DNA of 64,000 nt, from contig CAJXKF010000002.1 in the NCBI GenBank assembly GCA_913055695.1, positions 434,001 to 498,000 on the forward strand. The letters run 5' to 3'. This document shows, piece by piece, positions 18,522 through 60,183 of the stretch (its first letter is position 1; each line of letters starts with the position of its first letter). Source of the DNA: an uncultured Methylophaga sp. Its GTDB lineage: Bacteria; Pseudomonadota; Gammaproteobacteria; Nitrosococcales; Methylophagaceae. The translations under genes were made by a program, and so were the position numbers. Under the pieces are notes generated by a model. The model ran no database searches. It was not told the origin of the DNA and saw only the letters and a program-made list of their open reading frames with translations.

Positions 18522-20861
18522 TCAGACTGTCCAGGCTACCGGCGCCGAAATCAGGTAGCCCTGCACAAAGTCAACACCGATATGCTTCAGGCTGATCAAA
18601 GTCGCTTCATCCTCGACAAATTCCGCTACGGTTTTTAAACCAAGCACCTGGCCGATGCCATTGATGGAATTGACGATTTCGAGATTAACCGTGTTATGAA
18701 CACAGTCTCTGACAAACATGCCATCAATTTTCAGATAATCAATCGGCAGTTGTTTGAGATAGGCGAATGAGGACAGGCCGCTGCCGAAGTCATCGAGCGC
18801 GAACTGACAGCCAATCTGGCGCAGTTCATTAATGAAGTGTAAGGCGGAGCGCATATTGGTGATCGCTGCCGTCTCGGTCACTTCAAAACAAATAACGGCC
18901 TTATCATCGCTGAGCTTCGCCTCTATGATGAGCTTGATGATACGCTCGTAGAAACGTCCATCCCCTAGCGACTGGCCTGACAGGTTGATCGCATAGATAC
19001 CACTGATATCGCGCCCTGCCTCCCTCGCGCTGGATAACTGCGATAAGACATGCTCGACGGTCCACATATCAATCGCCGCAGCCAGATTATAGCGTTCCGC
19101 TGCCGGCAGAAACTCGGCCGGCGAGATCACCGAGCCATCATCATCCAGCATTCTGATCAGTAATTCGCAGTGTGGCAGGCCCGCATTTCTGCTCTGCAGA
19201 GGCTGGATTGGCTGACTGTAGAGGACCAGGCGATCCTCCGTTAAGGCTTGTTGAATCCGCGCCACCCAGCGCATTTCACCACTACGCTGGACCAAATCGG
19301 TATCAGTATCGGTAAAAAGGTGTAAACGATCGCGACCCGCTTCCTTGGCTGCATAACAGGCACTGTCCGCCTGTTTGAGCAGTTCTACCAGGGAGCTGTC
19401 ATGGTCGATCGCAACCAGGCCGATACAGGCTGTGACTTTAAAGATATAACTTTCATATTCGAAGCTGAATCTGCGAATCGATTCCAGCAGGTTTTCCAGC
19501 CTGTCACGTGCTTGTTCCTGTGAGCAGTCCGGCATCAGTACAGCGAACTCATCACCGCTGAAACGCGCCAGCATATCCTGCTCTCTCAGACCCTGACGAA
19601 GCAGTTGGCTGATTTGCTTAAGCAGTGCGTCACCGGCAATGTGGCCACAGGTATCGTTAATTACCTTGAACTGGTCCAGATCAAGATAACAAAGCACATA
19701 CTGCGAATGCAGCGGCTTTGACAACAGCGTCTGCAACTGTTTCTCCAGGGCGCGGCGGTTAGGTAAGCCGGTCAGCGCATCGTGTAAAGCCTGATGCTGC
19801 AGATCCTCACTCAGCAGATACTGCTCGGTGATATCCTGCGCCTGGACGACGACATACTCAATTTCGCTGTCCTCATTTCTCACCGCCGATAGCGTAGAGT
19901 TCAACCACAGGCTCCTGCCATGGCGAGTAATGTAGCGGCGGGTGATTTTGTATTGCTTGATGTCCCCCTGAAGCAGCTTCAAAAATTGCGGACTGATTTC
20001 TGAAGAGTCGTCCGGATGCAACAGTTCGGTGGCGTGTCTGCCCTGCAAGGTTTTCTTATCATAGCCGAAGAGTTCAGAGCCGGCTTTGTTCACATCCAGG
20101 ATCAGGAAACGCTTATCCATCAACAGCATGGGCACACCGGCATCTTCAAAGGTGTGTAACAGAAAGGTTTCTTTGGCGCGTAGCTCGTTGACCAGCTCCG
20201 ATTGCGCCTGATTGATCTCGGATAAATGACTGACCAGAGCCCGGTTTTCCTGGCGTAACCTCAGACTTTCCAGCATTTTTTGATTGAGATTTCGTGCCAG
20301 CAGCAGTATCGCAACCAGATAAACCAGTGTCATTAAGGCGATATAAGTGATACCTGCATTAAATATGCTGAAACTGACCGGGAGCACCATCGGCAATACA
20401 AATGCGCAGAAACTACGCAGACTGCTGAGATAAGAAAAAAGCGCGCCGGCAGACATGCCGCAGACGACCAGCGGAATCGTCATCTGCTGAATCAATGGCA
20501 GCCCCGTATTGAAAATGAAAGCTAATGTGCCCCAAATCAAGCCGCTGACAAACAAGGCGGCAGCGTACTGATTTTCACAACTTCTAACGAGTTCGCTGGT
20601 GGGATTGCGCATACTTTTGTTGCGCACACGGTGCCACAGCCAGAGACGTATACTATTGACTGCGACAGCTGTCCCCCACCACCAGTACAAGAAAAGCGGA
20701 TTGACTGCAGGATAGAGAACCACAGCTGTCAAAGAGCTCACTATTAGATTAGTGATGATTGCAATGACGCCCTGCTGCAACAGGATCTGCAAACGCATTA
20801 GTTCGATCGAGGCAGCCTCAGCGGCACGGACATCCTTATTCATGCTGATTTGGGTGTTCAA
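18522..20861 (-). CDS. Membrane-bound PAS-GGDEF-EAL c-di-GMP protein
   Basis: 779 residues. Roughly residues 25-200 form a membrane sensor of five or six hydrophobic segments (MASE-like). A PAS domain follows (~220-345, LLMDKRFLILDVNKAGSELFGYDKKT type), then GGDEF (~355-515) with the active-site variant SGDEF in ARFSGDEFAVLM, then EAL (~530-779). The EAL signature reads ELL, but other phosphodiesterase residues are present: NLSGQSL, CFEVTETA and DDFGSG. Both cyclase and phosphodiesterase activity are therefore possible. The upstream gap holds two CRP-type palindromes, the nearer centred about 45 bases before the start codon. Confidence 0.92.
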   Translation of the reverse strand: MNTQISMNKDVRAAEAASIELMRLQILLQQGVIAIITNLIVSSLTAVVLYPAVNPLFLYWWWGTAVAVNSIRLWLWHRVRNKSMRNPTSELVRSCENQYAAALFVSGLIWGTLAFIFNTGLPLIQQMTIPLVVCGMSAGALFSYLSSLRSFCAFVLPMVLPVSFSIFNAGITYIALMTLVYLVAILLLARNLNQKMLESLRLRQENRALVSHLSEINQAQSELVNELRAKETFLLHTFEDAGVPMLLMDKRFLILDVNKAGSELFGYDKKTLQGRHATELLHPDDSSEISPQFLKLLQGDIKQYKITRRYITRHGRSLWLNSTLSAVRNEDSEIEYVVVQAQDITEQYLLSEDLQHQALHDALTGLPNRRALEKQLQTLLSKPLHSQYVLCYLDLDQFKVINDTCGHIAGDALLKQISQLLRQGLREQDMLARFSGDEFAVLMPDCSQEQARDRLENLLESIRRFSFEYESYIFKVTACIGLVAIDHDSSLVELLKQADSACYAAKEAGRDRLHLFTDTDTDLVQRSGEMRWVARIQQALTEDRLVLYSQPIQPLQSRNAGLPHCELLIRMLDDDGSVISPAEFLPAAERYNLAAAIDMWTVEHVLSQLSSAREAGRDISGIYAINLSGQSLGDGRFYERIIKLIIEAKLSDDKAVICFEVTETAAITNMRSALHFINELRQIGCQFALDDFGSGLSSFAYLKQLPIDYLKIDGMFVRDCVHNTVNLEIVNSINGIGQVLGLKTVAEFVEDEATLISLKHIGVDFVQGYLISAPVAWTV

Positions 20862-20898
20862 CGATACTCCAGACTAAACACTTCGCTTTTTTCGTAAT

Positions 20899-20914
20899 TG
20901 TGAACTACGTCACA
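20899..20914. promoter_or_regulatory. CRP/Clp-type palindrome, site 1
   Basis: TGTGA-ACTACG-TCACA is a perfect match to the CRP/Vfr/Clp core TGTGA-N6-TCACA. It lies 38 bases upstream of the GGDEF/EAL start codon. Binding is inferred from sequence only. Confidence 0.6.
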
Positions 20915-20951
20915 GGCTGGCACAGTTAACCATATGTGACTCAATTCAACC

Positions 20952-20967
20952 TGTGAGACAGTTCACA
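20952..20967. promoter_or_regulatory. CRP/Clp-type palindrome, site 2
   Basis: TGTGA-GACAGT-TCACA is a second perfect TGTGA-N6-TCACA palindrome. Its centre is 53 bases from site 1 and about 110 bases upstream of the glycine-zipper start codon. The two sites together make a divergent control region likely. Confidence 0.6.
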
Positions 20968-21069
20968 ACTTAACAAAAAAACGGCTTTTGAAAACCATAA
21001 TCATTCAGTTCTGGTTCAGTTATCGATTGCTAATCTGCCTGCAACAGCTGACAAAAGAGGAGAGCTGTA

Positions 21070-21624
21070 ATGAAAACCATCATAAAAACCCTGGCTCTGG
21101 CTTCAGCTTTCACGCTGACCTCTGCTAACGTAATGGCTGATCACAATGATCAATATGAACGTGAATATCGGGATTATGATCGGAGCGAAAAAGCCCGCGT
21201 CACCCATGTCGAGCCGATTTATCGTACTGTCACAGTCACCCGTCCTGAACGCGAATGCTGGGATGAGCCCCGGCGCCATCGCAGTGGTCATCAGTCTTAT
21301 ACCAGCACTATCGCCGGTGGCTTAATTGGTGGTGTTATCGGTAATCAGTTTGGTGGCGGCAGTGGTAATACGGCGATGACCATTGCCGGTACGCTGCTCG
21401 GCGGTTCAGTGGGACGTGATATGGGTAACCGCTACCAGGATGTTGATTATACTTATCAGGAGCAATGCCGGGTAATAGACAGACAATACCGTGAACAGCG
21501 CGTTGATGCTTATGAGGTCAGCTATCGTTATCACGGCAGAATTTATACCACAGTGATGGATCATCATCCGGGAAAATTCATTCCAGTTGATGTCCACGTT
21601 GAACCGCGTCGTTCCTATTATTGA
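21070..21624 (+). CDS. Exported glycine-zipper 2TM domain protein
   Basis: 184 residues. A signal peptide (ALASAFTLTSANVMA, cleavage after VMA near residue 23) is followed by a charged region and the glycine-zipper segment IAGGLIGGVIGNQFGGGSGNTAMTIAGTLLGGSVG (~residues 81-117, described by its repeating G-x3-G pattern). The last part is aromatic and Arg-rich, with two cysteines (ECWDEP and EQCRV) that could form a disulfide. This is the Rick_17kDa/PcP-like glycine-zipper family, envelope proteins of unclear role. AGAGGAGAGC precedes the ATG. A c-type cytochrome follows after 10 bases. Confidence 0.85.
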   Translation: MKTIIKTLALASAFTLTSANVMADHNDQYEREYRDYDRSEKARVTHVEPIYRTVTVTRPERECWDEPRRHRSGHQSYTSTIAGGLIGGVIGNQFGGGSGNTAMTIAGTLLGGSVGRDMGNRYQDVDYTYQEQCRVIDRQYREQRVDAYEVSYRYHGRIYTTVMDHHPGKFIPVDVHVEPRRSYY

Positions 21625-22428: not shown

Positions 22429-23109
22429 ATGCGCGTTCTACTGATAGAAGACGAGATTCATTTGCGTGAGCAGATCACGCGACAGCTCAATGACCAGAAT
22501 CTGACGGTTGATTCTGTAGCCGACGGCGAGGAAGGGCTGTTTATGGGCAGCGAATATGCCTATGATGTTGCGATTATTGATCTGGGCCTGCCCAAATTAT
22601 CCGGTATTGAAGTCATTCAGCAGCTTCGCCAGAAAGGACTGGATTATCCGATATTGATTCTCACCGCACGCGGACGCTGGCAGGATAAGGTCGAGGGTCT
22701 GGAGTCCGGCGCTGATGATTACCTCGTCAAGCCCTTTCATTTCGAAGAACTTTTGGCCCGGCTGAACGCCCTGGCGAGACGCGCTTCGGGCTGGGCCAAT
22801 TCAACTATCTGCTGTGGTCCTATCTGTCTCAATCCAAGCACCCAGCAAGTGACCAAGAATCAGACTGCCATTGATCTCACCGCTTATGAATACCGTTTGT
22901 TGCATTACCTGATGCTGCATGCAGGTGAAGTTATTTCCAAAACAGAATTAACTGATCATATTTACGAACTGGATCAGGACCGCGACAGTAATGTGATTGA
23001 AGTGTTTGTGAAACGCCTGCGCAGTAAACTGGACCCGGAAAAACAACTGAACCCGATTGAGACCCTGCGTGGTCGCGGCTACCGGCTGAACCTGCCTCGT
23101 GGTCAATAA
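22429..23109 (+). CDS. OmpR/PhoP-type response regulator
   Basis: 226 residues. Receiver domain with the acidic pocket IEDE (residues 6-9), phospho-acceptor Asp51 in VAIIDLGLPK and KPF (Lys ~101). The C-terminal winged-helix Trans_reg_C domain carries DLTAYEYRLLHYLMLH and VIEVFVKRLRSKLD, ending in RGRGYRL. It most resembles the PhoP/QseB group. It overlaps the kinase gene by 11 bases, so the pair is translationally coupled. Likely targets include its own operon via the repeats at 22078-22112. Confidence 0.92.
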   Translation: MRVLLIEDEIHLREQITRQLNDQNLTVDSVADGEEGLFMGSEYAYDVAIIDLGLPKLSGIEVIQQLRQKGLDYPILILTARGRWQDKVEGLESGADDYLVKPFHFEELLARLNALARRASGWANSTICCGPICLNPSTQQVTKNQTAIDLTAYEYRLLHYLMLHAGEVISKTELTDHIYELDQDRDSNVIEVFVKRLRSKLDPEKQLNPIETLRGRGYRLNLPRGQ

Positions 23110-34073: not shown

Positions 34074-34185
34074 GCGTTCCTCCTTTTCATTTGGACTAGC
34101 AAGTGACTTACAGCGTCTAAAGCGCTGTTACTGGTGTCGACACAACTTAGCGCTGATTGTTCCTTTTTTGTGATGAACTTCTCAT

Positions 34186-59356: not shown

Positions 59357-60183
59357 CTGACGGTTTCAGACTGACTGAAGGCTTCAATGCCGTTATAAAC
59401 TAGAAAATGCTTGCCCTTGGCACGAGCGACCATACCGATGCCAATCTGCTGTGCCAGCTTCAGGCCCATCTCGGTTACGCCGGAGCGGGATAACAACAAT
59501 GGCACCTGCATCTGGGCCACTTTAATCACCATCTCTGAAGTCAACCGGCCGGTGGTGTAAAACACCTTGTCATGTCCCTCAATACCATTCAGCCACATCC
59601 AGCCGGAAATGGCGTCAACGGCGTTATGTCTGCCTACATCCTCGACAAACATCAGAATATCAGTGCCATCGCATAAAGCGCAGCCATGCACCGCCCCCGC
59701 CTGCTTGTACATTTCGTTATATTCAGTCAGCGCCTTGAGCACATCATATATCGATTCAGCACTGAATCGCGGACATTGCAGTTTCAATTCTGACAGCGAA
59801 TCCATCACATGGCCGAACATCGTGCCCTGACCGCAACCGCTGGTCACGGTACGGCGTGACGTGAGTTGTTCGATATTATCTTTGGGGGTGCGGGTGGTCA
59901 CCGCCACGGCTTCGACATCCCAGTCGACTTGAATCGATTCAATGTCTTCCAGTTTGTCGACCAGACCCTGGTTCCGGATATAGCCCAGCGTCAGCAATTC
60001 CGGCTGTGCACCGAGTGTCATCAAGGTCACAATTTCAATCGTATTAAGGTAGATGGTCAGCGGTCGCTCACCGGTCAATGACACTTCGCGGCTTTCACCG
60101 AGTTCATCAATGACGGTGGTGGTATGAAGCCGGTGAATCCCGGCCTGGCTCATCTCTGGTTTTAACTCAGCCACCCGTGACAC
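59353..60183 (-). CDS. fdhD: Formate dehydrogenase accessory sulfurtransferase FdhD
   Basis: 276 residues. It delivers sulfur to the molybdenum (or tungsten) cofactor of formate dehydrogenase. Family landmarks are RPLTIYLNTIEIVTLMTLGAQPELLTLGYI, VEDVGRHNAVDAISGW, FYTTGRLTSEMVIKVAQM and LLSRSGVTEMGLKLAQQIGI. The usual CxxC sulfur-carrying pair is SGCGQGTMF here, retaining one Cys only. The end of moaA overlaps its start by 17 bases. No formate dehydrogenase subunit is in the window. Confidence 0.9.
   Translation of the reverse strand: MSRVAELKPEMSQAGIHRLHTTTVIDELGESREVSLTGERPLTIYLNTIEIVTLMTLGAQPELLTLGYIRNQGLVDKLEDIESIQVDWDVEAVAVTTRTPKDNIEQLTSRRTVTSGCGQGTMFGHVMDSLSELKLQCPRFSAESIYDVLKALTEYNEMYKQAGAVHGCALCDGTDILMFVEDVGRHNAVDAISGWMWLNGIEGHDKVFYTTGRLTSEMVIKVAQMQVPLLLSRSGVTEMGLKLAQQIGIGMVARAKGKHFLVYNGIEAFSQSETVS

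Follow-up and report, generated by a model that had tools for sequence, protein, structure and literature searches.

Among the systems closest to the locus presented here, lrbR of Shewanella putrefaciens is alike in that a CRP acts directly upstream of the gene encoding a c-di-GMP enzyme; according to the available part of that report, cAMP-CRP acts there together with LrbA, and the authors failed to find a CRP site (PMC12415220). The Methylophaga locus, in contrast, shows two perfect tandem sites, and it is cAMP that is in doubt. Clp of Xanthomonas (3iwz) has the recognition residues, a replaced Ser83 and a gap-free alignment in common with the Methylophaga CRP. However, the Clp residues reported as key for c-di-GMP are D70, E99, R154, R166 and D170 (PMC6637768, in the sections available), and none of the five is found in any of the 16 CRPs aligned from the family Methylophagaceae (hereafter the family). 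The best structural match to the CRP by sequence is Vfr of Pseudomonas aeruginosa (2oz6), which keeps Ser83, whereas Methylophaga has Met at this position and the class I cyclase homologue of the family is degenerate. Finally, the CytR/CRP tandem operators of enterobacteria, as far as the accessible text of PMC3454398 describes them, have, as here, a pair of CRP sites whose distance is conserved and which enclose a conserved element, although this genome has no LacI-family match.

Tandem CRP-type sites

The stretch analyzed, called the window, comprises 64,000 nucleotides of an uncultured Methylophaga sp. (contig CAJXKF010000002.1, positions 434,001 to 498,000), whose genome (G000) amounts to 2.61 Mb in 12 contigs. 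An earlier note on this DNA had described two perfect TGTGA-N6-TCACA palindromes, 53 bp apart, between a c-di-GMP gene and a glycine-zipper gene. Coordinates, absence of mismatches and placement were all reproduced. Site 1 (TGTGAACTACGTCACA) is located at 20899-20914, proximal to the GGDEF/EAL gene, and site 2 (TGTGAGACAGTTCACA), the candidate activating site, at 20952-20967; the distance from start to start is 53 bp and the core of both is conserved. They are intergenic, flanked by the PAS-GGDEF-EAL gene on the minus strand (18522-20861) and the glycine-zipper gene on the plus strand (21070-21624). A degenerate third site (TGTGACTCAATTCAAC, two mismatches, plus strand) lies between them at 20935-20950 and is also present in the relatives G003 and G005.

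The scan for further sites that the earlier note had proposed gave 13 perfect matches genome-wide against none for the same pattern read backwards, which served as control; with up to one mismatch allowed, the figures were 81 and 39. Within the window no perfect site was found besides sites 1 and 2. Two more CRP-like sites with one mismatch each were observed there, at 34169-34184 and 60016-60031. Additionally, single-base shuffles of the upstream regions of the seven named relatives that carry the pair (20,000 per region) produced no equally good pair at 51-53 bp. Some of the perfect sites may have no operator role, since four of the 13 fall within ORFs of 100 aa or more (L005, which is a short and doubtful ORF, L007, L008 and L011) and one within an inverted repeat. 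The site of L011 is within an ORF but also upstream of a diguanylate cyclase. The one in the inverted repeat (L012:1501-1516) belongs to a long structure resembling a terminator and is probably no operator.

Conservation of the sites and the gene they accompany

The leftward gene encodes a PAS-GGDEF-EAL protein of 779 aa with an N-terminus that appears hydrophobic by eye. Its N-terminus was matched in 14 of the 24 genus genomes, and the 12 with at least 40% identity were used for comparison; the TTG start is aligned in all 12. Nine named records encode the orthologue, all of them Methylophaga, including M. thiooxydans DMS010, M. aminisulfidivorans MP and M. sulfidovorans DSM 11578. A pair with up to one mismatch per site and a spacing of 51-53 bp was detected upstream of 9 of the 12 genus orthologues, corresponding to 7 of 10 distinct sequences, as G023/G014 and G022/G008 are identical in this region. 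Specifically, both sites are perfect in G000, G003, G006 and G002, while G023, G014, G013, G022 and G008 have one mismatch in each. A tenth pair, 53 bp apart, with 0 and 2 mismatches, is present in G015; G005 has site 2 alone (one mismatch) and G004 a remnant alone with two mismatches. Concerning the named records, the pair is present in seven of the nine, counting the case with 0 and 2 mismatches. The spacing between the sites differs by 2 bp among species.

Across the 10 distinct sequences, the share of the commonest letter at core positions is 0.92 for site 2 and 0.90 for site 1; the same measure gives 0.67 and 0.70 for the spacers and 0.54 for the unassigned rest. Core columns thus have a mean of 0.91 against 0.56 for spacers and rest together, a difference that none of 100,000 permutations reached. 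Outside the genus the picture is different. G025, G026 and G033, which belong to other genera, carry a distantly related GGDEF homologue at this position (29, 33 and 34% identity, respectively) and no site with up to two mismatches, so conservation is confined to the genus. G026 and G033 nevertheless encode a CRP above the cut-off. The earlier note had regarded absence of the sites from close relatives as evidence against its reading; the pairs in 9 of the 12 genus orthologues speak for it, though the three distant homologues are without sites.

The other gene that the sites could serve is the glycine-zipper gene on the right. With its protein 58 relatives were searched, 39 of which match at some level, and upstream regions were read for 17 same-family glycine-zipper genomes, G033 included; for seven matches from other families, the preceding 500 bp contain no site at up to two mismatches. 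A search of a plasmid collection for the gene found nothing similar. If CRP acted here as a class I activator of this gene and not of the GGDEF/EAL gene, the sites would be centered near -83.5 and -136.5 from a start inferred near 21043. Site 2 would then be roughly in phase with the positions that class I activators occupy, and its spacing to the start of the glycine-zipper gene is equal in G000, G003 and G005. The distribution of the sites makes such an arrangement unlikely, because the pair is kept in five genomes without a match to the glycine-zipper protein (those with one mismatch per site), and all eight family genomes whose glycine-zipper gene has no GGDEF neighbor in the stretch examined (G016, G009, G012, G030, G029, G031, G032 and G034) lack a site with up to one mismatch in the 400 bp upstream. 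Two of these eight loci have a single match each with two mismatches. The ORFs of M. aminisulfidivorans give the gene order hrpA-type helicase, GGDEF/EAL, cytochrome, regulator and kinase. Since pairs are kept without the glycine-zipper gene and absent without the GGDEF neighbor, the sites within the genus go with the GGDEF/EAL gene, and the neighboring glycine-zipper gene looks incidental, even if dual control of both genes is possible.

The CRP sites do not track the glycine-zipper gene, and the latter has a candidate promoter of its own at 21004-21036 on the plus strand, composed of TTCAG-N6-TTCAG (21004-21019, conservation 0.84) and TGCTAATCT (21028-21036), and recognizable also where CRP sites are absent. 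The gene order to the right is glycine-zipper protein, cytochrome c, short protein, response regulator and sensor kinase, and the response regulator, which is of the OmpR type and encoded at 22429-23109, may have its site at 21004-21036.

The CRP orthologue and the question of its ligand

The earlier note had correctly reported no crp gene in the window and had left the regulator open. A CRP orthologue is encoded elsewhere in the genome, at C2:527394-528077, 29 kb past the window end (C2:498000), and the concern that the genome might have no such regulator is thereby removed. It scores 276.1 bits on the NCBIfam CRP model (cut-off 266) and is one of two cNMP-binding proteins of the genome, the other being an FNR above its own cut-off. 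R180, E181 and R185, the recognition residues of CRP, are intact. All 12 genomes bearing the GGDEF/EAL orthologue have a CRP above the cut-off. The gene is flanked by trpC and an OsmC-type gene, an arrangement that presumably resembles the vfr locus; E. coli crp also has a neighbor of the OsmC family. No site with up to two mismatches was found in the stretches upstream of crp-osmC and cyaA.

The two palindromes are probably operators of the genome's own CRP orthologue, which would regulate the leftward PAS-GGDEF-EAL gene. This explanation is drawn from four observations, namely the sites themselves, their genome-wide excess, their conservation together with the gene among members of the genus and the fact that the regulator is encoded. 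The assignment of the palindromes to a CRP-family core in the earlier note agrees with it, as judged from sequence, in view of a CRP with intact recognition residues and of genus-conserved sites upstream of a c-di-GMP gene.

Which signal such a CRP would answer is a separate matter. In CRP, cAMP is contacted by E72, R82, S83, T127 and S/T128; in the protein presented here E72, R82, T127 and T128 are present, while S83 is replaced by M. Sixteen family CRPs, those with loci among the 28 above the cut-off, were aligned, and Ser83 is replaced in every one (12 M, 2 Q, 1 T and 1 G), whereas it is kept in E. coli CRP, in Vfr and in 10 of 14 relatives outside the family, a set that left out G049. The four outside-family CRPs without Ser83 come with no class I cyclase match, but the same applies to 5 of the 10 in which Ser83 is retained.

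A loss of Ser83 is also a feature of Clp, and the earlier note had raised the idea that c-di-GMP inhibits the regulator in the manner of Clp. According to this explanation, c-di-GMP would bind the CRP and detach it from its operators, so that the GGDEF/EAL enzyme would feed back on its own gene. The CRP aligns without gaps to 3iwz over 199 residues and several of the targets are c-di-GMP genes, but at the five reported c-di-GMP positions it has E, M, D, A and E, with R166 replaced by A and E99 by M, and D162 and V165 of Clp, which the accessible part of the Clp work reports for promoter binding, differ as well. The Clp-type inhibition is accordingly improbable. A feedback loop through the GGDEF/EAL gene is in itself possible.

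The other option of the same note was cAMP. A CRP orthologue is encoded, R82, E72 and T127 are kept, and the genome has a class I adenylate cyclase homologue (L139:4-2625 on contig C9, minus strand). Ordinary control would require cAMP made by the cell, with cAMP-CRP on both sites as part of a carbon- or energy-status regulon. The cyclase homologue, however, is a candidate pseudo-cyclase that lacks both the GS...DxD motif and a GS(T/A)Q loop; this, together with the loss of Ser83 in all 16 family CRPs, weakens the cAMP option. GS...DxD is the active-site motif of class I adenylate cyclase, and at positions 102, 103, 114 and 116 the homologue has N, P, R and E. The protein was aligned with those of 20 of the 36 other matching genomes and of E. 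coli, and the segment is covered by 16 family sequences (G022 does not cover it). An intact GS is absent from all 16, G102 being lost in 16 and S103 in 15 (it is kept in G006); D114 is lost in 15 (kept in G027) and D116 in 10. The GS(T/A)Q loop is likewise missing from every one of the 16, and residue 300 is D in 12 of them and E in four. All these motifs are retained by the five comparators (E. coli and four outside relatives). On two Pfam models the homologue obtains 104 and 111 bits, above the cut-offs, compared to 278 and 859 for E. coli. A class III cyclase search of the genome gave no match.

The homologue nevertheless has a full-length frame under purifying selection, with a dN/dS of 0.13 against G003 (dS 1.1) and of 0.21 against G005, where dS is near saturation. 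In G028 and G030 it is interrupted by stops, and in G028 crp is split too. With both genes broken in G028, the two may still work together. Among the three site-less genomes with a neighboring GGDEF homologue, G025 and G026 have no cyclase homologue, which would fit cAMP-CRP control, but the third, G033, has one, and the correlation is weak. The proposal that the sites track the cyclase gene rested on G025 and G026 and was rejected, as G033 has the cyclase homologue, a CRP and the distant GGDEF homologue but no site; a missing cyclase does not simply account for missing sites. A literature search on cyclic AMP or adenylate cyclase in Methylophaga or methylotrophs found no title on the subject, and in the available part of PMC8879981 the two search words occur unrelated to each other.

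Judged by its residues, the textbook cAMP source of this genome looks inactive, and ordinary cAMP-CRP control of the sites is doubtful. It is a tentative possibility that CRP in the Methylophaga family has been uncoupled from cAMP, with a broken but selected cyclase and Ser83 lost. The pair would then answer another input (another ligand or the pseudo-cyclase), while CRP would direct several c-di-GMP genes via such operators. Against this it counts that the cyclase search covered classes I and III and that a CRP may still bind cAMP when Ser83 is its sole loss.

Putative mechanism and other c-di-GMP genes

For the GGDEF/EAL gene, a Shine-Dalgarno-like GGAG is located at 20867-20870 on the minus strand, five bases 5' of the TTG, and GGAG or GGAA is found there in 12 of 12 genus sequences. 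Between the two sites a conserved block on the same strand (TGGTTAACTGTG, 20921-20932), which reads TGNTTWACT in 10 of the 12, is a candidate extended -10 of the GGDEF/EAL promoter. Its TTAACT hexamer (20924-20929) is 30 bp from the center of site 2, and this distance is 29 or 30 in the 10 block-bearing sequences, which comes close to the spacing of class II CRP promoters. CRP at site 2 could accordingly activate from a class II-like position, some 30 bp upstream of the block, with transcription starting near 20917 and site 1 just downstream. A second dimer at site 1, on the same face, might limit transcription, and with growing amounts of active CRP the output of the GGDEF/EAL gene would first go up and then reach a ceiling. 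The limiting role of site 1 is a guess, and so are the promoter and the class II geometry, since no consensus sigma-70 promoter was found in 20800-21100 and the block has no A at the second position of a -10.

The conserved block between the sites could also be seen as the binding place of an anti-activator, held in the manner of CytR by two CRP dimers at a distance of 53 bp. According to the part of PMC3454398 available, CytR promoters are served by flanking CRP sites, and for a given gene the distance between these tends to be conserved. CytR itself was rejected, as a PF00356 search of the genome gave no match, and the CytR-like arrangement as a whole is very improbable here. An anti-activator other than CytR between the sites is possible.

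Operators of the CRP acting on the GGDEF/EAL gene may have counterparts at other c-di-GMP genes, of which the genome has a high density (41 GGDEF matches in 2.6 Mb). When the region from -300 to +60 of the longest start was scanned for all 41 genes with up to one mismatch, six sites were detected at five genes, against 0.44 expected at the genome-wide density, and four perfect sites against 0.07; these expectations assume an even density, whereas real sites are concentrated in front of genes, which makes the true expectation higher and the enrichment smaller than these figures suggest. Leaving aside the gene of the window, which accounts for two of the six, four sites at 4 of 40 genes are left. 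One perfect site (L013:1501-1516) is located in front of a GGEEF diguanylate cyclase (1569-2627), after a CheV-like gene. This site is kept in 5 of 21 genus orthologues, perfect in G000, G003, G006 and G015 and with one mismatch in G002, while the other 16 have no site with up to two mismatches in 160 bp.

Other perfect sites were observed beside genes of different kinds. The one at L014:1501-1516 lies 94 bp upstream of a PQQ-dependent methanol/ethanol-type dehydrogenase, which is divergent to another glycine-zipper protein. That at L015:1501-1516 is upstream of a FIST-domain protein, whose match to the NosP model is below the cut-off, and another is upstream of a glycine-rich protein without a family match. 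For M. nitratireducenticrescens GP59, four Crp/Fnr-family genes, fnr and seven c-di-GMP riboswitches are given in the available part of PMC12530212, in which nothing was found on CRP sites.

Control of c-di-GMP genes by CRP is a familiar theme, met here in a methylotroph with a seemingly inactive textbook cAMP source. The most interesting part of these data is located outside the window, in a CRP regulon whose cAMP source seems to have lost its active site. With that source looking inactive, the operators of the global regulator seem to have been retained, whereas its signal may have changed, which, if true, would show the re-wiring of a second-messenger regulon.
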